From Chloroflexota bacterium (GTDB lineage: Bacteria; Chloroflexota; Dehalococcoidia; SAR202; UBA11138), in NCBI GenBank assembly GCA_022566975.1, contig JADFHV010000127.1, positions 1-6,400 on the forward strand: 6,400 bases of DNA. Direction: 5' to 3'. The translations under genes and the position numbers were made by a program. Each line of letters begins with the position of its first letter. Position 1 is the stretch's first letter. The notes beneath the pieces are model-generated. The model was not told the DNA's origin. It ran no database searches and saw only the letters and a program-made list of their open reading frames with translations. Positions 1-6,400 of the stretch are shown here, piece after piece.

Positions 1-2193
<2,193 letters not shown>

Positions 2194-2269
2194 GCGCGAG
2201 GCGCCCTCCGACTTCTACGGGTCTTCGGTGCGTAGCCGTGGTTGCCCCACCGCTGTAGGCGCGCTTCTA

Positions 2270-2299
2270 TTGACCCGGCTCGTGGCCCGTTGCTACACT
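2270..2299 (+). promoter_or_regulatory. Sigma-70-type promoter of tRNA-Val, extended -10
   Basis: The -35 box TTGACC is at 2270-2275 and the -10 box TACACT at 2294-2299, with an 18-base spacer. TG one base before the -10 makes it an extended -10 (TGCTACACT). The predicted start of transcription is near 2306, about 23 bases before the mature tRNA. It is the only good promoter seen in the 135-base gap after rpoC and may also serve the genes downstream of the tRNA. The rest of the gap (2194-2269) shows only a weak CTACG/CGTAG inverted repeat at 2215-2235. Confidence 0.7.
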
Positions 2300-2328
2300 T
2301 GATTCCATGGACCTGGGGGCTGGCGCGA

Positions 2329-2405
2329 GGGCGGTTAGCTCAGTGGTTTAGAGCGCTGCGTTGACATCGCAGAGGTCATTGGTTCAAATCCATTACCGCC
2401 CACCA
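2329..2405 (+). tRNA. tRNA-Val (anticodon GAC), CCA encoded
   Basis: A full cloverleaf can be folded. The acceptor stem is GGGCGGT/ACCGCCC (2329-2335 with 2395-2401), the D stem is GCTC/GAGC and the anticodon stem CTGCG/CGCAG has loop TTGACAT, giving anticodon GAC and hence valine. The T loop is TTCAAAT, the discriminator is A at 2402 and the CCA end is encoded at 2403-2405. The T stem ATTGG/CCATT has one T-T mismatch at its second pair; otherwise the structure is standard. Confidence 0.96.
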
Positions 2406-2427
2406 CCTGTCCGCCGGCGGAGTGAAG

Positions 2428-2814
2428 ATGGTGCCACGAGTGCAGAACGCGGAAATCGAGCAGGCCGGCCACAATCAGGCCTCCGAGGGTACGGAGGCGA
2501 TCGGGGAGCAGCGGCTTCGCGAGCTGATAGTCAACGCCATACCCGCCGAGGCGGGGCTCGTGCCGCTGTCGGGATTCAAGATGGACCTGTCGGCGAATCC
2601 CGGTTTTCATAAGGTCTTCTTCTCGGCTCGGTGCGACTGCGGGACAAGCGCGCTCTTGAGTGTAGAGGTAGCACAGGACAAGACGATAGACCAGGTGCGC
2701 CGAGCGCTGCCTTCCCTGGTGGACAGGCTCCAGGGTCAGGCGCGGGCCTTCCATAACATGCCGTGCGAAGTGCATACGAAGATGCGACTGGGGCCGGCGC
2801 TCGGCCGGCAGTAG
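2428..2814 (+). CDS. Protein of unknown function heading the selenoprotein cluster
   Basis: I do not recognise this family. From ATG 2428 the protein has 128 residues and is soluble, with no signal peptide or membrane segment. The first 25 residues or so are polar and probably disordered. Next come a helical region (IGEQRLRELIVNAIP) and a compact core with an R-C-D-C-G motif at Cys codons 2632 and 2638. A helix (TIDQVRRALPSLVDRLQ) and a second conserved-looking Cys in M-P-C-E-V-H follow. The ATG is chosen because GGAG at 2419-2422 lies 5 bases upstream; GTG 2422 would overlap that site, and GTG 2431 is possible. The gene starts 22 bases after the tRNA-Val CCA and ends 16 bases before the FTR gene, so it is probably co-transcribed with both selenoprotein genes. 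The CxC motif could bind metal or act in thiol chemistry, but this is conjecture. Confidence 0.8.
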   Translation: MVPRVQNAEIEQAGHNQASEGTEAIGEQRLRELIVNAIPAEAGLVPLSGFKMDLSANPGFHKVFFSARCDCGTSALLSVEVAQDKTIDQVRRALPSLVDRLQGQARAFHNMPCEVHTKMRLGPALGRQ

Positions 2815-2820
2815 AATACG

Positions 2821-2826
2821 AAGGAG
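2821..2826 (+). promoter_or_regulatory. Ribosome binding site of the FTR selenoprotein gene
   Basis: AAGGAG lies 4 bases before ATG 2831. It fixes the start of a gene that a conventional reading would end after only 56 codons, at the first in-frame TGA. Confidence 0.8.
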
Positions 2827-2830
2827 TCCG

Positions 2831-3274
2831 ATGCCGCGGGAGCTTACCGAGGAAGAGGCGCTGAAGCGCGCCGTCAAGTTTTCCGAGCGCTACGTGGAGC
2901 GCGGGCCGTACGAGTTCTTCCCGGAACCGGAGGTGGTCCGCTTGGTCCAGGAGGGCCTGGGCGAGAATGAGCAGAATCACGGGTACCGCTACTGTCCCTG
3001 AATGCCTCTGAGCGGCGATCCCGTCGAGGATCGCAAGAAGATATGCCCGTGCGAGCGGCATCACGAGGACATCGAGCGCGACGGCTTCTGTATATGAATG
3101 TTCTTCGTGAGCGAAGAGTTTCTTCGCAAGTATGAGGCTGGAGAGGAGTTCAACCAGACGATAGACGAGGCGGTACCTGTGGGGCAAGAGCTGTTTGAGA
3201 AAACAGGCGGCAAGCGCGAGTTCAACGTCAGACGCAAACAGGAGAGCGGAGAAGGAGACTCGAAGGAGTCGTAG
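2831..3274 (+). CDS. Ferredoxin-thioredoxin reductase catalytic subunit-like selenoprotein with two selenocysteines
   Basis: FTR catalytic subunits take electrons one at a time from ferredoxin through a [4Fe-4S] cluster and reduce a disulfide partner in the cytoplasm. With the TGA codons at 2999 and 3095 read as selenocysteine (U), the frame runs to TAG 3272 and gives 147 residues. The family signature is then complete: Y-R-Y-C55-P-U57, K-I-C72-P-C74, then G-F-C87-I-U89-M-F-F-V. In the plant/cyanobacterial enzyme the four cluster ligands are the equivalents of C55, C72, C74 and C87, and the redox disulfide is formed by the two positions that are U here. No variable subunit is visible, as in many bacterial and archaeal FTRs. 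The His between the last two Cys of the classical enzyme is Ile here. The 50-residue acidic/basic C-terminal tail looks less conserved. Two independent nonsense mutations hitting exactly these two codons is the alternative, and it is unlikely. Confidence 0.9.
3015..3034 (+). promoter_or_regulatory. Predicted SECIS hairpin for the first FTR selenocysteine codon (U57)
   Basis: GCGATCC (3015-3021) pairs perfectly with GGATCGC (3028-3034), closing a 6-base loop CGTCGA. The loop has G at its second position, 22 bases after the TGA at 2999-3001. A short stem just downstream of the UGA with a G at the start of the apical loop is the bacterial SECIS pattern bound by SelB. It lies inside the coding sequence and encodes G-D-P-V-E-D-R, a variable FTR loop. 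Confidence 0.82.
3111..3127 (+). promoter_or_regulatory. Predicted SECIS hairpin for the second FTR selenocysteine codon (U89)
   Basis: GCGAAGA (3111-3117) pairs perfectly with TCTTCGC (3121-3127). Opening the top A-T pair leaves a 6-bp stem with a 5-base loop AGTTT. Its G at 3118 is in the second loop position and 21 bases after the TGA at 3095-3097, close to the 22-base distance at the first site. A competing hairpin (3101-3118) shares the left arm; see findings. Confidence 0.75.
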
Positions 3275-3285
3275 CGAGGCTGGGA

Positions 3286-3292
3286 AGGGGAG
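3286..3292 (+). promoter_or_regulatory. Ribosome binding site that decides the TTG start of seleno-glutaredoxin
   Basis: AGGGGAG sits 6 bases before TTG 3299. No ATG or GTG lies in frame between the FTR stop (TAG 3272) and the selenocysteine codon at 3335. This site therefore selects the TTG start and argues against the ATG at 3350, which falls after the active site. Confidence 0.75.
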
Positions 3293-3298
3293 TCCACT

Positions 3299-3553
3299 TT
3301 GGAGACGGACGTACAGGTATATACATCGGCCGGCTGAGGTCCGTGCCATATGGTGAAAGTGTATCTTTCACGAAAGGGCGTCCCCTTCACGGAGCGTAAC
3401 GTATCCCTGGACCGCGAGGCGCTGAAGAACCTGGTGGGCATGGGATTCCGCACCACGCCTGTCACCGTCATCGGGGAAAAGAGGGTTGTCGGCTACAGCA
3501 CCGCCAAACTGGACGAGGCCCTGGCCGCGGGCGGAATTGAGCCGCAGGGATGA
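3299..3553 (+). CDS. Glutaredoxin-family selenoprotein with U-G-P-C active site
   Basis: This is a small thiol-disulfide oxidoreductase of the glutaredoxin/NrdH type, predicted cytoplasmic. From TTG 3299, with TGA 3335 read as selenocysteine, it has 84 residues, a usual size for a one-domain glutaredoxin. The first strand (V-Q-V-Y-T-S) leads to A-G-U13-G-P-C16-H, where U13 replaces the nucleophilic first Cys of CxxC. Then come helix 1 (MVKVYLSRKGVPF), the second strand with ERNVS, the cis-Pro loop T-T-P54-V, and the last strand and helix (V-V-G-Y-S-T-A-K-L-D-E-A-L). Starting at ATG 3350 would remove the first strand and both active-site residues, so that reading is a misannotation. The gene follows the FTR after 24 bases in the same frame. 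It is probably the FTR's electron acceptor, by inference from linkage. Confidence 0.92.
3353..3371 (+). promoter_or_regulatory. Predicted SECIS hairpin for the glutaredoxin selenocysteine codon (U13)
   Basis: GTGAAAG (3353-3359) pairs perfectly with CTTTCAC (3365-3371), closing a 5-base loop TGTAT. The loop has G at its second position, 24 bases after the TGA at 3335-3337. Stem length, loop size, G position and distance all match the two hairpins in the FTR gene, although the stem sequences are unrelated. Confidence 0.82.
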
Positions 3554-3618
3554 CGGTCCAGGCGCTCTAGTCGTCGACGGGACAGCGCATCGTCGGCGTG
3601 CCTGAAGGCCGGCGCACG

Positions 3619-3648
3619 TTGACCGCACGCCCTCCTCCCGGATAGAAT
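3619..3648 (+). promoter_or_regulatory. Sigma-70-type promoter of tRNA-Asp
   Basis: The -35 box TTGACC is at 3619-3624 and the -10 box TAGAAT at 3643-3648, with an 18-base spacer. The predicted start of transcription is near 3655, about 27 bases before the tRNA. The -35 box and spacing are the same as in the tRNA-Val promoter. The gap 3554-3618 holds nothing else that I can support. Confidence 0.7.
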
Positions 3649-3681
3649 CGAACCGTAGGTCGTCCCTCTGTCTTTCAGCGC

Positions 3682-3758
3682 GGCCCCGTGGTGTAGCGGT
3701 TTAACATATCGGCCTGTCAAGCCGAAGATCGCCGGTTCGAATCCGGTCGGGGTCGCCA
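3682..3758 (+). tRNA. tRNA-Asp (anticodon GTC), CCA encoded
   Basis: The acceptor stem is GGCCCCG/CGGGGTC (3682-3688 with 3748-3754), the D stem GTGT/ACAT and the anticodon stem TCGGC/GCCGA. The anticodon loop CTGTCAA gives anticodon GTC, aspartate. The T stem GCCGG/CCGGT has loop TTCGAAT, the discriminator is G 3755 and CCA is at 3756-3758. The recombinase remnant on the other strand abuts and reads into its 3' half, which marks it as an integration target. Confidence 0.97.
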
Positions 3759-4355
3759 GACAGACTTCCGTCTTGACACTCTTCGGAGATTTGGACGAAC
3801 GGCCTCAACTCGGGCCGCGGCCTCACCGCCACTACCCTCTCGTTCCTTACCCAGACCAGGTCGAACAGCGCCCTGGCTAAGCGGTCCCGCTGTTCCGACG
3901 TAGCTTCCTCCCATGCCGATGAGACATTCTCCAGGAATCCACTCAACTTGGCGAGGATATCTGGGCGCTCTTCCCGAGGGAACAGCCTCGCCAATTCCTC
4001 AGATATGGCATCCCTCTCGGCTAGATACTCTCCCTCAGGCTTATCTCCCCATTCGTAGAGCTTCCGAACCGGTTCGAGTCTCCCCTCCAGTTCCCTGCGG
4101 TTAGGTTCTGGGTCGCCTTCGGCTTCCTGGACGTGCCGGTACAACGCCACAATACGTTCCTGGTAGTCAGTGGGTATCACGAATCAACGAAGATACTCTA
4201 GAACCTGGCCCTCGTAGACATCCAGGAACGTGCCGCGGTTCGTGCACCCTGCGCCTTTGACGCGTTCCCGGCAATATATCCGGGCCCGTCCTTTGACGTT
4301 CTGGTGGACCCACATAGGGCCGCTGCATTTCTTGCACCTCAGGAGGCGCTGTCGG
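3701..4355 (-). pseudogene. Large serine recombinase remnant (C-terminal part, nonsense codon) next to tRNA-Asp
   Basis: Large serine recombinases integrate and excise mobile elements. On the minus strand from about 4355 the frame reads L-L-R-C-K-K-C-S-G-P-M, then I-Y-C and G-C-T-N-R. This is a recombinase zinc ribbon with Cys codons at 4334-4336, 4325-4327, 4271-4273 and 4244-4246. After E-Y-L-R an in-frame TGA (4184-4186) interrupts it, and the frame resumes as F-V-I-P-T-D-Y-Q-E-R-I-V and the charged coiled coil typical of these proteins, then the R-P-D-I-L-A-K-L-S-G-F-L and R-P-E-L-R-P-F-V regions. The N-terminal catalytic domain with its serine is absent: in this frame upstream of 4355 no recombinase-like sequence is seen. 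The last 18 residues (GDPDRIRTGDLRLDRPIC) are antisense tRNA-Asp. It is therefore a truncated, disrupted integrase, probably inactive. Confidence 0.85.
3731..3758 (+). other. Probable integration (att) site in the 3' end of tRNA-Asp
   Basis: The T arm and acceptor end of tRNA-Asp are where the recombinase remnant begins on the opposite strand, an arrangement typical of an element integrated at a tRNA 3' end. The crossover bases cannot be defined because no second copy of this segment occurs in the window. Confidence 0.4.
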
Positions 4356-4927
4356 TCGACGTACCCTTCACCACCCCCATAGCGACACTCCAGCCGACCA
4401 TTACGGGCTGGACCATCGTAAGCGCGGCCGGGCTCCTGTTACTGGCGGCGGTGTACCTCCTGAGTATTTCAGGGGAGGGCGGTGGTAAGACCCTGGCCCG
4501 GGGCCTGAGCGGGCTGGTGGTGGCCGGTACGCTGGACGGCCTCTGGGGTGTAGCGTTAGCCCGGGATGTGGTCGCGGCGGACCTGTTCTGGACAATGCTG
4601 ACCCCCATGGTGGCACCACTGGCCCTGACCCCGATAATGGCTGCACAGGCGGGCCGGGTCCGGCTTCTGGTGCGCCGGAGAAAGGTAAGGCCCTCTTCAT
4701 ACGCCGAGTTGGTGGAGCCCAGGAACGAGGAGGCCCGCGACCGTATCCGCGCCTGGTGGGAGAACACTGCGCTGAGTCGACCGAAAAAGAGCCCGGGAAA
4801 GTTCAAGTGCCCGAGCTGCGGTCATCGGGGTCGTGCGCCGGCGGGGACCGAGCCGATCAAATGCGGCGGCTGCGGGAGGACGTTCGCCCGTGCGACCACA
4901 TCACAGCCCCCCTTCAGCCTAACATGA
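4304..4927 (+). CDS. Membrane protein with C-terminal zinc ribbon, unknown function, 5' end doubtful
   Basis: I do not recognise this family. From GTG 4304 the frame gives 207 residues. Hydrophobic segments at about 36-55, 66-86 and 94-114 suggest two or three membrane helices, followed by a basic stretch (V-R-L-L-V-R-R-R-K) that should stay in the cytoplasm. A polar helix and a zinc ribbon follow, C169-P-S-C172-G and C187-G-G-C190-G-R, suited to metal binding. The GTG has no visible ribosome binding site. Its first 15-20 codons are the antisense of the recombinase zinc ribbon, so the true N-terminus may have been cut away by the insertion; the next in-frame GTG (4451) would remove much of the first helix. 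It may thus be a 5'-truncated gene. Its stop overlaps the end of the convergent LamG gene by 9 bases. Confidence 0.65.
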   Translation: MDPHRAAAFLAPQEALSVDVPFTTPIATLQPTITGWTIVSAAGLLLLAAVYLLSISGEGGGKTLARGLSGLVVAGTLDGLWGVALARDVVAADLFWTMLTPMVAPLALTPIMAAQAGRVRLLVRRRKVRPSSYAELVEPRNEEARDRIRAWWENTALSRPKKSPGKFKCPSCGHRGRAPAGTEPIKCGGCGRTFARATTSQPPFSLT

Positions 4928-6400
4928 AGCACCCGAGGTCACTTCCTGTTTGGTTACCTTGCCGGTAGAGTCCCAGCAGTAGTAATAGGTGGTGATGGCT
5001 TTCCTCAGGGCGTTGGTCAGATCCAGAGTACCCGCACCGCCAGTGAAGACGTTCGTCACGTTGGACGGCACGTCACCACTCGGCAGCGCAGATAGTGAGT
5101 TCTCGGCGATGAAGGTGTCGATGGCCGTCTGGACCGATTCCTTCTCCGAGGTCCTGGCGCCGGACTCGCCTCTTTCCGCCTCGTACATCTCGTTGATGTC
5201 GCCGTAGTTCAGAGCACGATTGTAAATCTTAAGCTCGTCTATTATTCCGCCGAAGTGCTGGCCCGAATCCCCTCCAACAAGGGGCCCAACGCCTCCGATG
5301 AATAGGTCGGAGCCAGACATATCCCCTGGACCGCCGGTAAAGTCTTCGCTTGCGACCGCGAACCCGTCCATGAATAACACGTGAGAATTGCCGCTGCGTA
5401 CGTAGGAGTAGTAATGAAAATCAGAGTCCATCACAGTCGGACCGATTACAAAAACGTCACTGAGACCGACGCCGTCAAACCCTGCTACTATACGGTCCAT
5501 ATCATCGAAGCCAAGTAGATAGGCTGCATGCAGTTCGGCGGTGCCAGCAGAGGTCGAGACCTTAACAACCATGATACGAAAGTCCTCGGGAGTCCTGCCA
5601 AACGCGGTCCGCCGCGCCCAAAGTGCGACCGTGACCTGATCCCCCGAAATGTTGAGGCTGGCGTTATCGCGTACCTGCACGTAGTCATCCACGCCGTCGA
5701 AGGCAAACCCTTGTCCAACCACACCCGGAGCGAATGTTGCCCCGTTCCGAAGAGTGCCGCGGTTGCCCCCCGCGACGTCCTCGGCGGTGCCGTCCCCCGG
5801 CCACCAGGCCACGATCCCCGCAGGCTTCCCCGCTTCGACCGTCGCCTGCACTACGGTGGTGGTGGCTACTTCAATGGTGCTGACTTGGCCAATGGTGGTG
5901 GCTAGGCCAGCGGCAGTGGCTTGTTCAGTGGTGCTGACCAGGCCGGGCGCGGCCGCAGGAGCCGTAGAGGTTGGGGTAGAAATTACCGCCTCGGCGGCTG
6001 GCGAAGAGACCTGCGCTTCGTCTGCTTCCTCTCCACCACTCAACACCACCACCGCGACCACTGCCACTACGGCCACCACCGTTACCCCGATAGCTACCGG
6101 GACGATAGGAAACGCTCGTGCCCTCGGAAGGGCACGGACCTGCCGGTAGGCGACGCGCCCTTCCTTCTCGATGAAAAACTGCTCTTGTCCTGGCCGACCT
6201 TCAAAGTCCCCCGTGGGACGGAAGGACATGGTGACAATATAGTAGTCTTCGCCCTCCTCCTGCTCCATCGCGTCGAAGACCATTCGCACGCTTGCGAAAC
6301 GCGGCCCGTACTCCCCAGGCTCGTCCCTGGCCGCCTGCATAGCCACGACGACGGCCTGCTCCTGGGAAACATAACCAAGCGCCTCGCCGGCCGCGTCGAA
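4919..6400 (-). CDS. Membrane-anchored LamG-domain protein with pilin-like C-terminus (5' end outside window)
   Basis: The frame is open to the right edge, so GTG 6346 is probably internal; 493 codons are visible and the stop is TAG at 4919-4921. Counting from 6346, residues 1-75 form a soluble domain (Y-G-P-R-F-A-S-V, E-D-Y-Y-I-V, E-Q-F-F-I-E) predicted to be cytoplasmic. Residues 79-103 are one Val/Ala-rich membrane helix. Residues 105-175 are a Thr/Ala/Val/Ser-rich linker. Residues 178-390 are a LamG/concanavalin A-like jelly roll, with W-W-P-G-D-G-T, F-D-G-V-D-D-Y-V and the closing G-G-I-I-D-E-L-K-I-Y-N-R-A-L. Residues 403-467 resemble the C-terminal end of pilin-like proteins (Y-Y-Y-C-W-D-S-T-G-K-V). 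The most likely job is extracellular carbohydrate or surface binding; the ligand cannot be read from sequence. No promoter is visible, because the start lies outside the window. Confidence 0.85.
   Translation of the reverse strand, partial: FDAAGEALGYVSQEQAVVVAMQAARDEPGEYGPRFASVRMVFDAMEQEEGEDYYIVTMSFRPTGDFEGRPGQEQFFIEKEGRVAYRQVRALPRARAFPIVPVAIGVTVVAVVAVVAVVVLSGGEEADEAQVSSPAAEAVISTPTSTAPAAAPGLVSTTEQATAAGLATTIGQVSTIEVATTTVVQATVEAGKPAGIVAWWPGDGTAEDVAGGNRGTLRNGATFAPGVVGQGFAFDGVDDYVQVRDNASLNISGDQVTVALWARRTAFGRTPEDFRIMVVKVSTSAGTAELHAAYLLGFDDMDRIVAGFDGVGLSDVFVIGPTVMDSDFHYYSYVRSGNSHVLFMDGFAVASEDFTGGPGDMSGSDLFIGGVGPLVGGDSGQHFGGIIDELKIYNRALNYGDINEMYEAERGESGARTSEKESVQTAIDTFIAENSLSALPSGDVPSNVTNVFTGGAGTLDLTNALRKAITTYYYCWDSTGKVTKQEVTSGASC
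5876..5944 (-). repeat. Imperfect repeat in the linker of the LamG protein
   Basis: GGTGCTGAC followed by two variable bases and GGCC occurs at 5876-5890 and again at 5930-5944, exactly 54 bases (18 codons) apart. Both copies encode the V-S-T part of the Thr/Ala-rich linker. This is probably low-complexity expansion of a flexible stalk. Confidence 0.45.
6044..6079 (-). repeat. Degenerate 9-base tandem repeat encoding the VVA membrane helix
   Basis: Three degenerate 9-base units, each coding V-V-A, followed by V-V-V, make up the core of the single membrane helix of the LamG protein. Synonymous codons differ between units, so this is an old repeat or simple composition bias, not a recent slippage tract. 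Confidence 0.5.

Follow-up and report, generated by a model that had tools for sequence, protein, structure and literature searches.

A 6,400-nt stretch of the genome of a Chloroflexota bacterium (GCA_022566975.1, contig JADFHV010000127.1, positions 1 to 6,400, forward strand; hereafter the window) carries ftrB-UU, a gene for a catalytic-type protein of the ferredoxin:thioredoxin reductase (FTR) family with selenocysteine (Sec, U) at both redox-active positions. The product, from a Dehalococcoidia/SAR202-like Chloroflexota, is likely a member of the FtrB double-selenoprotein family and a stand-alone ferredoxin-type disulfide reductase, which would feed a Sec-containing glutaredoxin (Grx) encoded next to it. 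Taken without the Grx pairing, the enzyme identity is highly probable; the joint statement ranks lower because it includes that pairing, where thioredoxin as the alternative substrate retains a share of the probability. This reading is built on the sequence identity of the protein, both Sec codons, the cluster ligands, the hairpins that follow the Sec codons, the Sec machinery of relatives and the conserved neighbours.

The gene, its recoded codons and the selenocysteine insertion sequence (SECIS)-like elements are laid out as follows:

2831-3274, plus strand: ftrB-UU, FTR catalytic-type selenoprotein, 147 aa, ATG to TAG
2999-3001, plus strand: TGA for Sec57, first redox position, C-P-U
3015-3034, plus strand: SECIS-like hairpin after Sec57, 7-bp stem gcgatcc/ggatcgc, loop cgtcga beginning 20 nt past the TGA
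3095-3097, plus strand: TGA for Sec89, second, cluster-side redox position, C-I-U
3111-3127, plus strand: SECIS-like hairpin after Sec89, 6-bp stem gcgaag/cttcgc, loop agttt beginning 19 nt past the TGA

Once TGA is read as Sec, a single 147-residue frame containing U57 and U89 emerges, with a ribosome-site-like aaggag immediately 5' of its start. The motifs occur in the order C55-P-U57, C72-P-C74 and C87-I-U89; Cys thus supplies all four cluster ligands, and Sec both redox residues. With C put for U, the protein scored 76.2 bits against Pfam PF02943 (FeThRed_B; gathering threshold 22, residues 11-105), and C55, C72, C74 and C87 are invariant in the family alignments, as expected of a PF02943 member. 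It also passed the curated cut-off of NCBIfam NF041072, 'FtrB family double-selenoprotein' (FtrB_double_U; 231 bits, cut-off 160), with a Sec codon at each redox position. In sequence alignments with the solved FTRs 4tpu, 7pwe and 7bzk, the four ligands and both U residues fall on conserved cysteines. For the Synechocystis chain 1dj7, the match ranges alone (residues 11-94 against 11-96 of ftrB-UU) shift the second site by two, so that residue 89 corresponds to Synechocystis Cys87. In Synechocystis, Cys57 is exposed and Cys87 lies on the side of the cluster. Strong structural matches in Foldseek and VIA-align were all FTR-type, the lack of other folds being uninformative. A first-pass annotation of this DNA had proposed FTR catalytic homology at 2831-3274, TGA codons (2999 and 3095) at both redox-cysteine positions, four [4Fe-4S] ligands still Cys and homology running through both TGA codons to the TAG. 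The domain scores, the alignments, the intact ligands and the single frame, strongly conserved past each TGA, bear out both its observation and its reading, for an enzyme family that is already known.

Conservation of both TGA codons was assessed in a scan of one genome per species (84,980 species) with patterns that lie between the two U residues and leave out both TGA codons. Among 86 matching stretches, 59 encode ftrB relatives, and all of these loci are titled Chloroflexi/Chloroflexota, Dehalococcoidia or SAR202. TGA occupies both redox codons in 59/59 genome loci, the ortholog comparison that the first-pass annotation had proposed, as well as in the window and in 3/3 viral-contig loci from IMG/VR (L060-L062, identical in the stretch read), i.e., in 63/63 loci. 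The recurrence in the 59 genome and 3 viral-contig loci makes the double TGA neither chance nor sequencing error. Two narrow patterns spelling the sites as Cys or Trp retrieved 275 stretches, none encoding relatives. Of 148 genomes drawn evenly from the class, 69 had some match and 9 passed the NF041072 cut-off, each of the 9 with two TGA codons. Outside the scanned set, the double-Sec family may include Cys or single-Sec variants: the first site is Cys in two short database proteins (P0013 and P0014), which terminate shortly before the second, and Ser in a third (P0015). The viral contigs carry double-Sec ftrB without the two genes that flank it in the window, and of three proteins flanking the L060 copy, two had no Pfam match and one a weak CarboxypepD_reg match below cut-off. 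These contigs may be misclassified host DNA; a phage origin of ftrB was rejected, given no match in phage records at E 1e-5 and the lack of both flanking genes at the three viral-contig loci.

A hairpin follows each TGA, the loop beginning 19-22 nt downstream. Hairpins were compared across 61 ftrB sequences (the window, 59 genomes and one of the three viral-contig copies, two being dropped) and the 45 neighbouring Grx genes described below; the sequences are related, so the counts are not independent trials. The Sec89 hairpin keeps six pairs and a loop opening with AGT in 61/61. Seven pairs form in 47/61 Sec57 hairpins and 43/45 Grx hairpins, with NGT in the loop in 53/61 and 45/45, respectively. 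Codon choice is a stronger sign of these hairpins than compensatory changes. The Leu codon in the Sec89 stem is CTT in 61/61; in long open frames of these loci, CTT accounts for 14.8% of Leu codons. The Ser codon in the Grx stem is TCA in 45/45 versus 13.6%, both backgrounds being approximate as their frames were picked mechanically. Elsewhere in the gene, L43 (Leu in 61/61 sequences) is CTT in 7/61 and L60 (Leu in 56/61) in 3/61. Relative to synonymous resampling, the mean folding z was -1.66 and -1.88 in two segments starting just past Sec57 and -1.42 and -1.37 just past Sec89, other offsets lying between -0.73 and +0.09. The folding energy fell within the lowest 5% of resamples in 25/61 (Sec57), 18/61 (Sec89) and 16/45 (Grx) sequences.

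The machinery for Sec insertion was searched for in relatives, i.e., the genomes behind 29 of the 59 loci, alongside 14 control genomes. Matches above cut-off were found for selB in 25/29 relatives versus 2/14 controls, and for tRNA-Sec in 26/29 versus 5/14; in those 26 genomes the best tRNA-Sec match reached at least 62 bits, the next tRNA matches reaching 54 bits. Ten genomes chosen from the 29 all contain selA and selD (10/10 each). The top selD match has one in-frame TGA in each of G001, G003, G005, G007, G009, G013, G016, G019, G020 and G022; because of this codon, selenophosphate synthetase is probably itself a selenoprotein in those ten genomes.

The ftrB-UU gene sits in the following context:

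1-2193, plus strand: 3' part of rpoC, stop codon TGA
2329-2405, plus strand: tRNA-Val
2422-2814, plus strand: F1, upstream of ftrB; protein of unknown family, about 130 aa, in which C-x-C and C-x-x-H are conserved
3299-3553, plus strand: grx-U, U-G-P-C glutaredoxin; start codon TTG by comparison with relatives, its own stop codon TGA
3335-3337, plus strand: TGA for Sec of the U-G-P-C motif in grx-U
3353-3371, plus strand: SECIS-like hairpin after the Grx TGA, 7-bp stem gtgaaag/ctttcac, loop tgtat beginning 22 nt past the TGA

With its U-G-P-C active site (TGA at 3335), grx-U scored 51.1 bits against the Pfam glutaredoxin family PF00462 (gathering threshold 22.9); it did not reach the cut-off of any of the 16 NCBIfam models listed. 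In a tblastn search, its Cys form located a Sec-Grx beside ftrB in 45/63 loci (44/59 genomes and the window; 0/3 viral contigs), every one with the TGA. The Grx gene lies downstream on the same strand in 44, its TGA at a median distance of 97 nt past the FTR stop, and upstream on the other strand in one (L042). F1 occurs within 1.5 kb upstream of ftrB in 44/63 loci (43 genomes and the window), and its C-x-C and C-x-x-H are kept in 28/28 aligned members; four relatives of F1 had no Pfam family above cut-off, and the best match of the window copy, DUF7570 (E 0.02), lies below its cut-off. Both F1 and Grx accompany ftrB in 43/63 loci (42/59 genomes and the window), including L042 with its divergent Grx. 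Among 120 listed of 136 Grx database homologs found, one being the window's own, 119 begin at a Met right after the active site and one reads the TGA as W. The family is thus largely truncated in databases, and because nearly all listed entries start too late, annotation misses the Sec-Grx active site. The literature searched, which did not extend to a 2025 paper on selenoprotein neighbourhoods, contained no account of the F1-FtrB-Grx neighbourhood.

Were the TGA codons real stops, the window would hold a decayed FTR and unrelated nearby frames. Under translation table 11 the frame indeed ends at 3001, with further frames starting at 3098 and 3350; short forms ending before the second site (P0013 and P0014) are present in databases; and TGA is a normal stop here, since rpoC terminates in it and has none inside. 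Retention of both codons in 63/63 loci and the strong protein conservation past each leave this reading next to no probability, and the former rules out a pseudogene. Equally far-fetched is a genome-wide reassignment of TGA to Trp (code 4) or another residue. Some database entries do read the sites as W, the gene caller having apparently chosen code 4, but the sites coincide with catalytic Cys and are each followed by a hairpin, selA, selB, selC and selD are present in relatives, and the Grx frame itself terminates at TGA. A Trp code is ruled out by rpoC, which has 0 in-frame TGA codons and ends in one.

More weight is due to a double-Sec FTR that reduces thioredoxin, with Sec-Grx and F1 as merely co-located redox genes acting elsewhere. 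This view is favoured by the name of the family, by structural matches that include FTR-thioredoxin complexes and by the absence of an adjacent Grx from 15/59 genome loci; a thioredoxin-reductase-like flavoprotein was also found in 9/10 genomes (E 1e-40; above its cut-off in 4), so that thioredoxin may have another route as well. We nevertheless consider this alternative unlikely in view of the conservation of both neighbours in 43/63 loci and of the known Grx/reductase fusion 7pwe. Several further observations count against the reading preferred here. Among the 15 genomes lacking an adjacent Grx, 7 are without any Grx relative at E 0.001, one (G017) carries a close Sec-Grx at another locus, and weaker relatives are present in others; Grx is therefore not the sole substrate across the family. 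The grx-U protein has no sequence match to 7pwe at E 0.01. The Sec57 stem is mismatched in 14/61 loci, and compensatory two-sided stem changes are few. The window's own hairpins have z values of -1.1, -1.4 and -0.8, none significant singly, and 13%, 10% and 19% of synonymous resamples fold as low. Finally, genome G053 has a Cys-type FTR (L092) near its double-Sec ftrB, on the other strand; a Cys backup is thus not always lacking.

For the preferred reading, a reductase paired with Sec-Grx, the sequence suggests the following probable chemistry. SelB and tRNA-Sec would decode both TGA codons, aided by the hairpin after each. An electron donor, probably ferredoxin, would reduce the [4Fe-4S] cluster on C55, C72, C74 and C87, which would hand electrons to a U57-U89 diselenide, U89 lying on the cluster side and U57 being exposed. 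U57 would then attack the selenenylsulfide (Se-S) bond of the neighbouring U-G-P-C glutaredoxin, and the reduced Sec-Grx would in turn reduce cellular targets; F1 (CxC...CxxH) may be an accessory or a client. The diselenide, and any altered redox potential arising from it, are predictions already put forward in the first-pass annotation. We tentatively extend this scheme, at somewhat short of even chances, to a single ferredoxin-fed selenium electron relay of FtrB-UU and the U-G-P-C Grx (cluster to diselenide to selenenylsulfide), assisted by the metal-site-like F1. Cluster-side Se, apparently acquired separately by several FTR lineages of the class, would give an Fe-Se-linked intermediate and render the step faster or resistant to over-oxidation.

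Those other lineages came from the 148-genome draw, which yielded 21 weaker FTR rows with one TGA; 19 were inspected (L073-L091; G114 and G122 left out). The first redox site is Cys and the second TGA in all 19, of which 17 are canonical (C-H-U) and two are C-Y-U with, by eye, a rubredoxin-like tail. GGAAGGTCTTCC follows the TGA in all 17 C-H-U genes. In the C-Y-U pair, L091 has a hairpin with an agttt loop, and none could be placed in L073. A tree of 100 FTRs (few columns; L006 excluded, with unread bases; L091 a long branch) groups 60 double-Sec rows in one clade (99/98) and 17 single-Sec rows in another (100/99), with the two C-Y-U FTRs among Cys rows. The single-Sec FTRs thus fall into at least two lineages apart from the double-Sec clade, which suggests repeated origins of Sec at the cluster-side site; no FTR outside that clade was seen to have Sec at the first site. 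Three single-Sec FTRs that were scanned fell far below the NF041072 cut-off and matched no other NCBIfam model. Acquiring Sec repeatedly at the cluster-side position alone, as these lineages seem to have done, is a natural experiment on the chemistry between the [4Fe-4S] cluster and the disulfide in FTR.

Elsewhere in the window, minus-strand frames at 3682-4340, beside a tRNA-Asp, resemble remnants of a site-specific recombinase by eye, and 3704-4180 gave no Pfam match above cut-off. A large protein encoded at 4922-6346 (minus strand) contains a concanavalin-like Laminin_G_3 domain (Pfam, 63.4 bits) and, by eye, a membrane-spanning stretch.

The novelty implied by the first-pass annotation must be rejected, since NF041072 and, in the parts covered, a 2008 paper already describe a double-Sec FTR. 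Zhang and Gladyshev (2008, PMC2398784) reported two FTR selenoproteins in ocean (GOS) reads, one of them a read in which Sec replaces precisely the two redox Cys and a SECIS is predicted. Two reviews, in the parts covered, list FTR as a C-x-U selenoprotein (PMC9312934 and PMC13188914, the latter with NF041072 and two Sec); within this coverage, nothing else relevant appeared among the papers listed on FTR and selenocysteine, and the double-Sec FTR is so far a sequence prediction. Our analysis adds a neighbourhood that includes a hidden Sec-Grx, the strict retention of TGA at both sites, and single-Sec lineages that stand apart. Together, the clade, the strict Sec-codon conservation and the conserved neighbour pair turn the double-Sec FTR into a testable pathway.

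The ftrB-UU protein shares the double Sec at the redox Cys and the predicted SECIS with the GOS protein, whose host and gene neighbourhood are not given in the parts of PMC2398784 covered, the GOS sequences being marine reads. It resembles FtrB_double_U by score and by Sec at both redox sites, and nothing material differs in the FTR; the NF041072 name and description, as shown, are silent on Grx or F1 neighbours. The classical FTR catalytic chain works with a variable subunit. The PF02941 variable subunit was found in 0/10 genomes related to the window and, of the 14 controls, only in Synechococcus, which sets ftrB-UU apart from the classical heterodimer; the ftrB-UU type is the only FeThRed_B gene found in 10 genomes tested. 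Chloroplast and cyanobacterial catalytic chains (1dj7, 2pu9 and 7bzk) share its fold and, in the 7bzk alignment, its six redox and ligand positions, but have Cys at both redox sites where ftrB-UU has Sec. In Desulfotalea psychrophila (7pwe), glutaredoxin and ferredoxin disulfide reductase are fused in one chain, whereas here they are encoded by separate genes.
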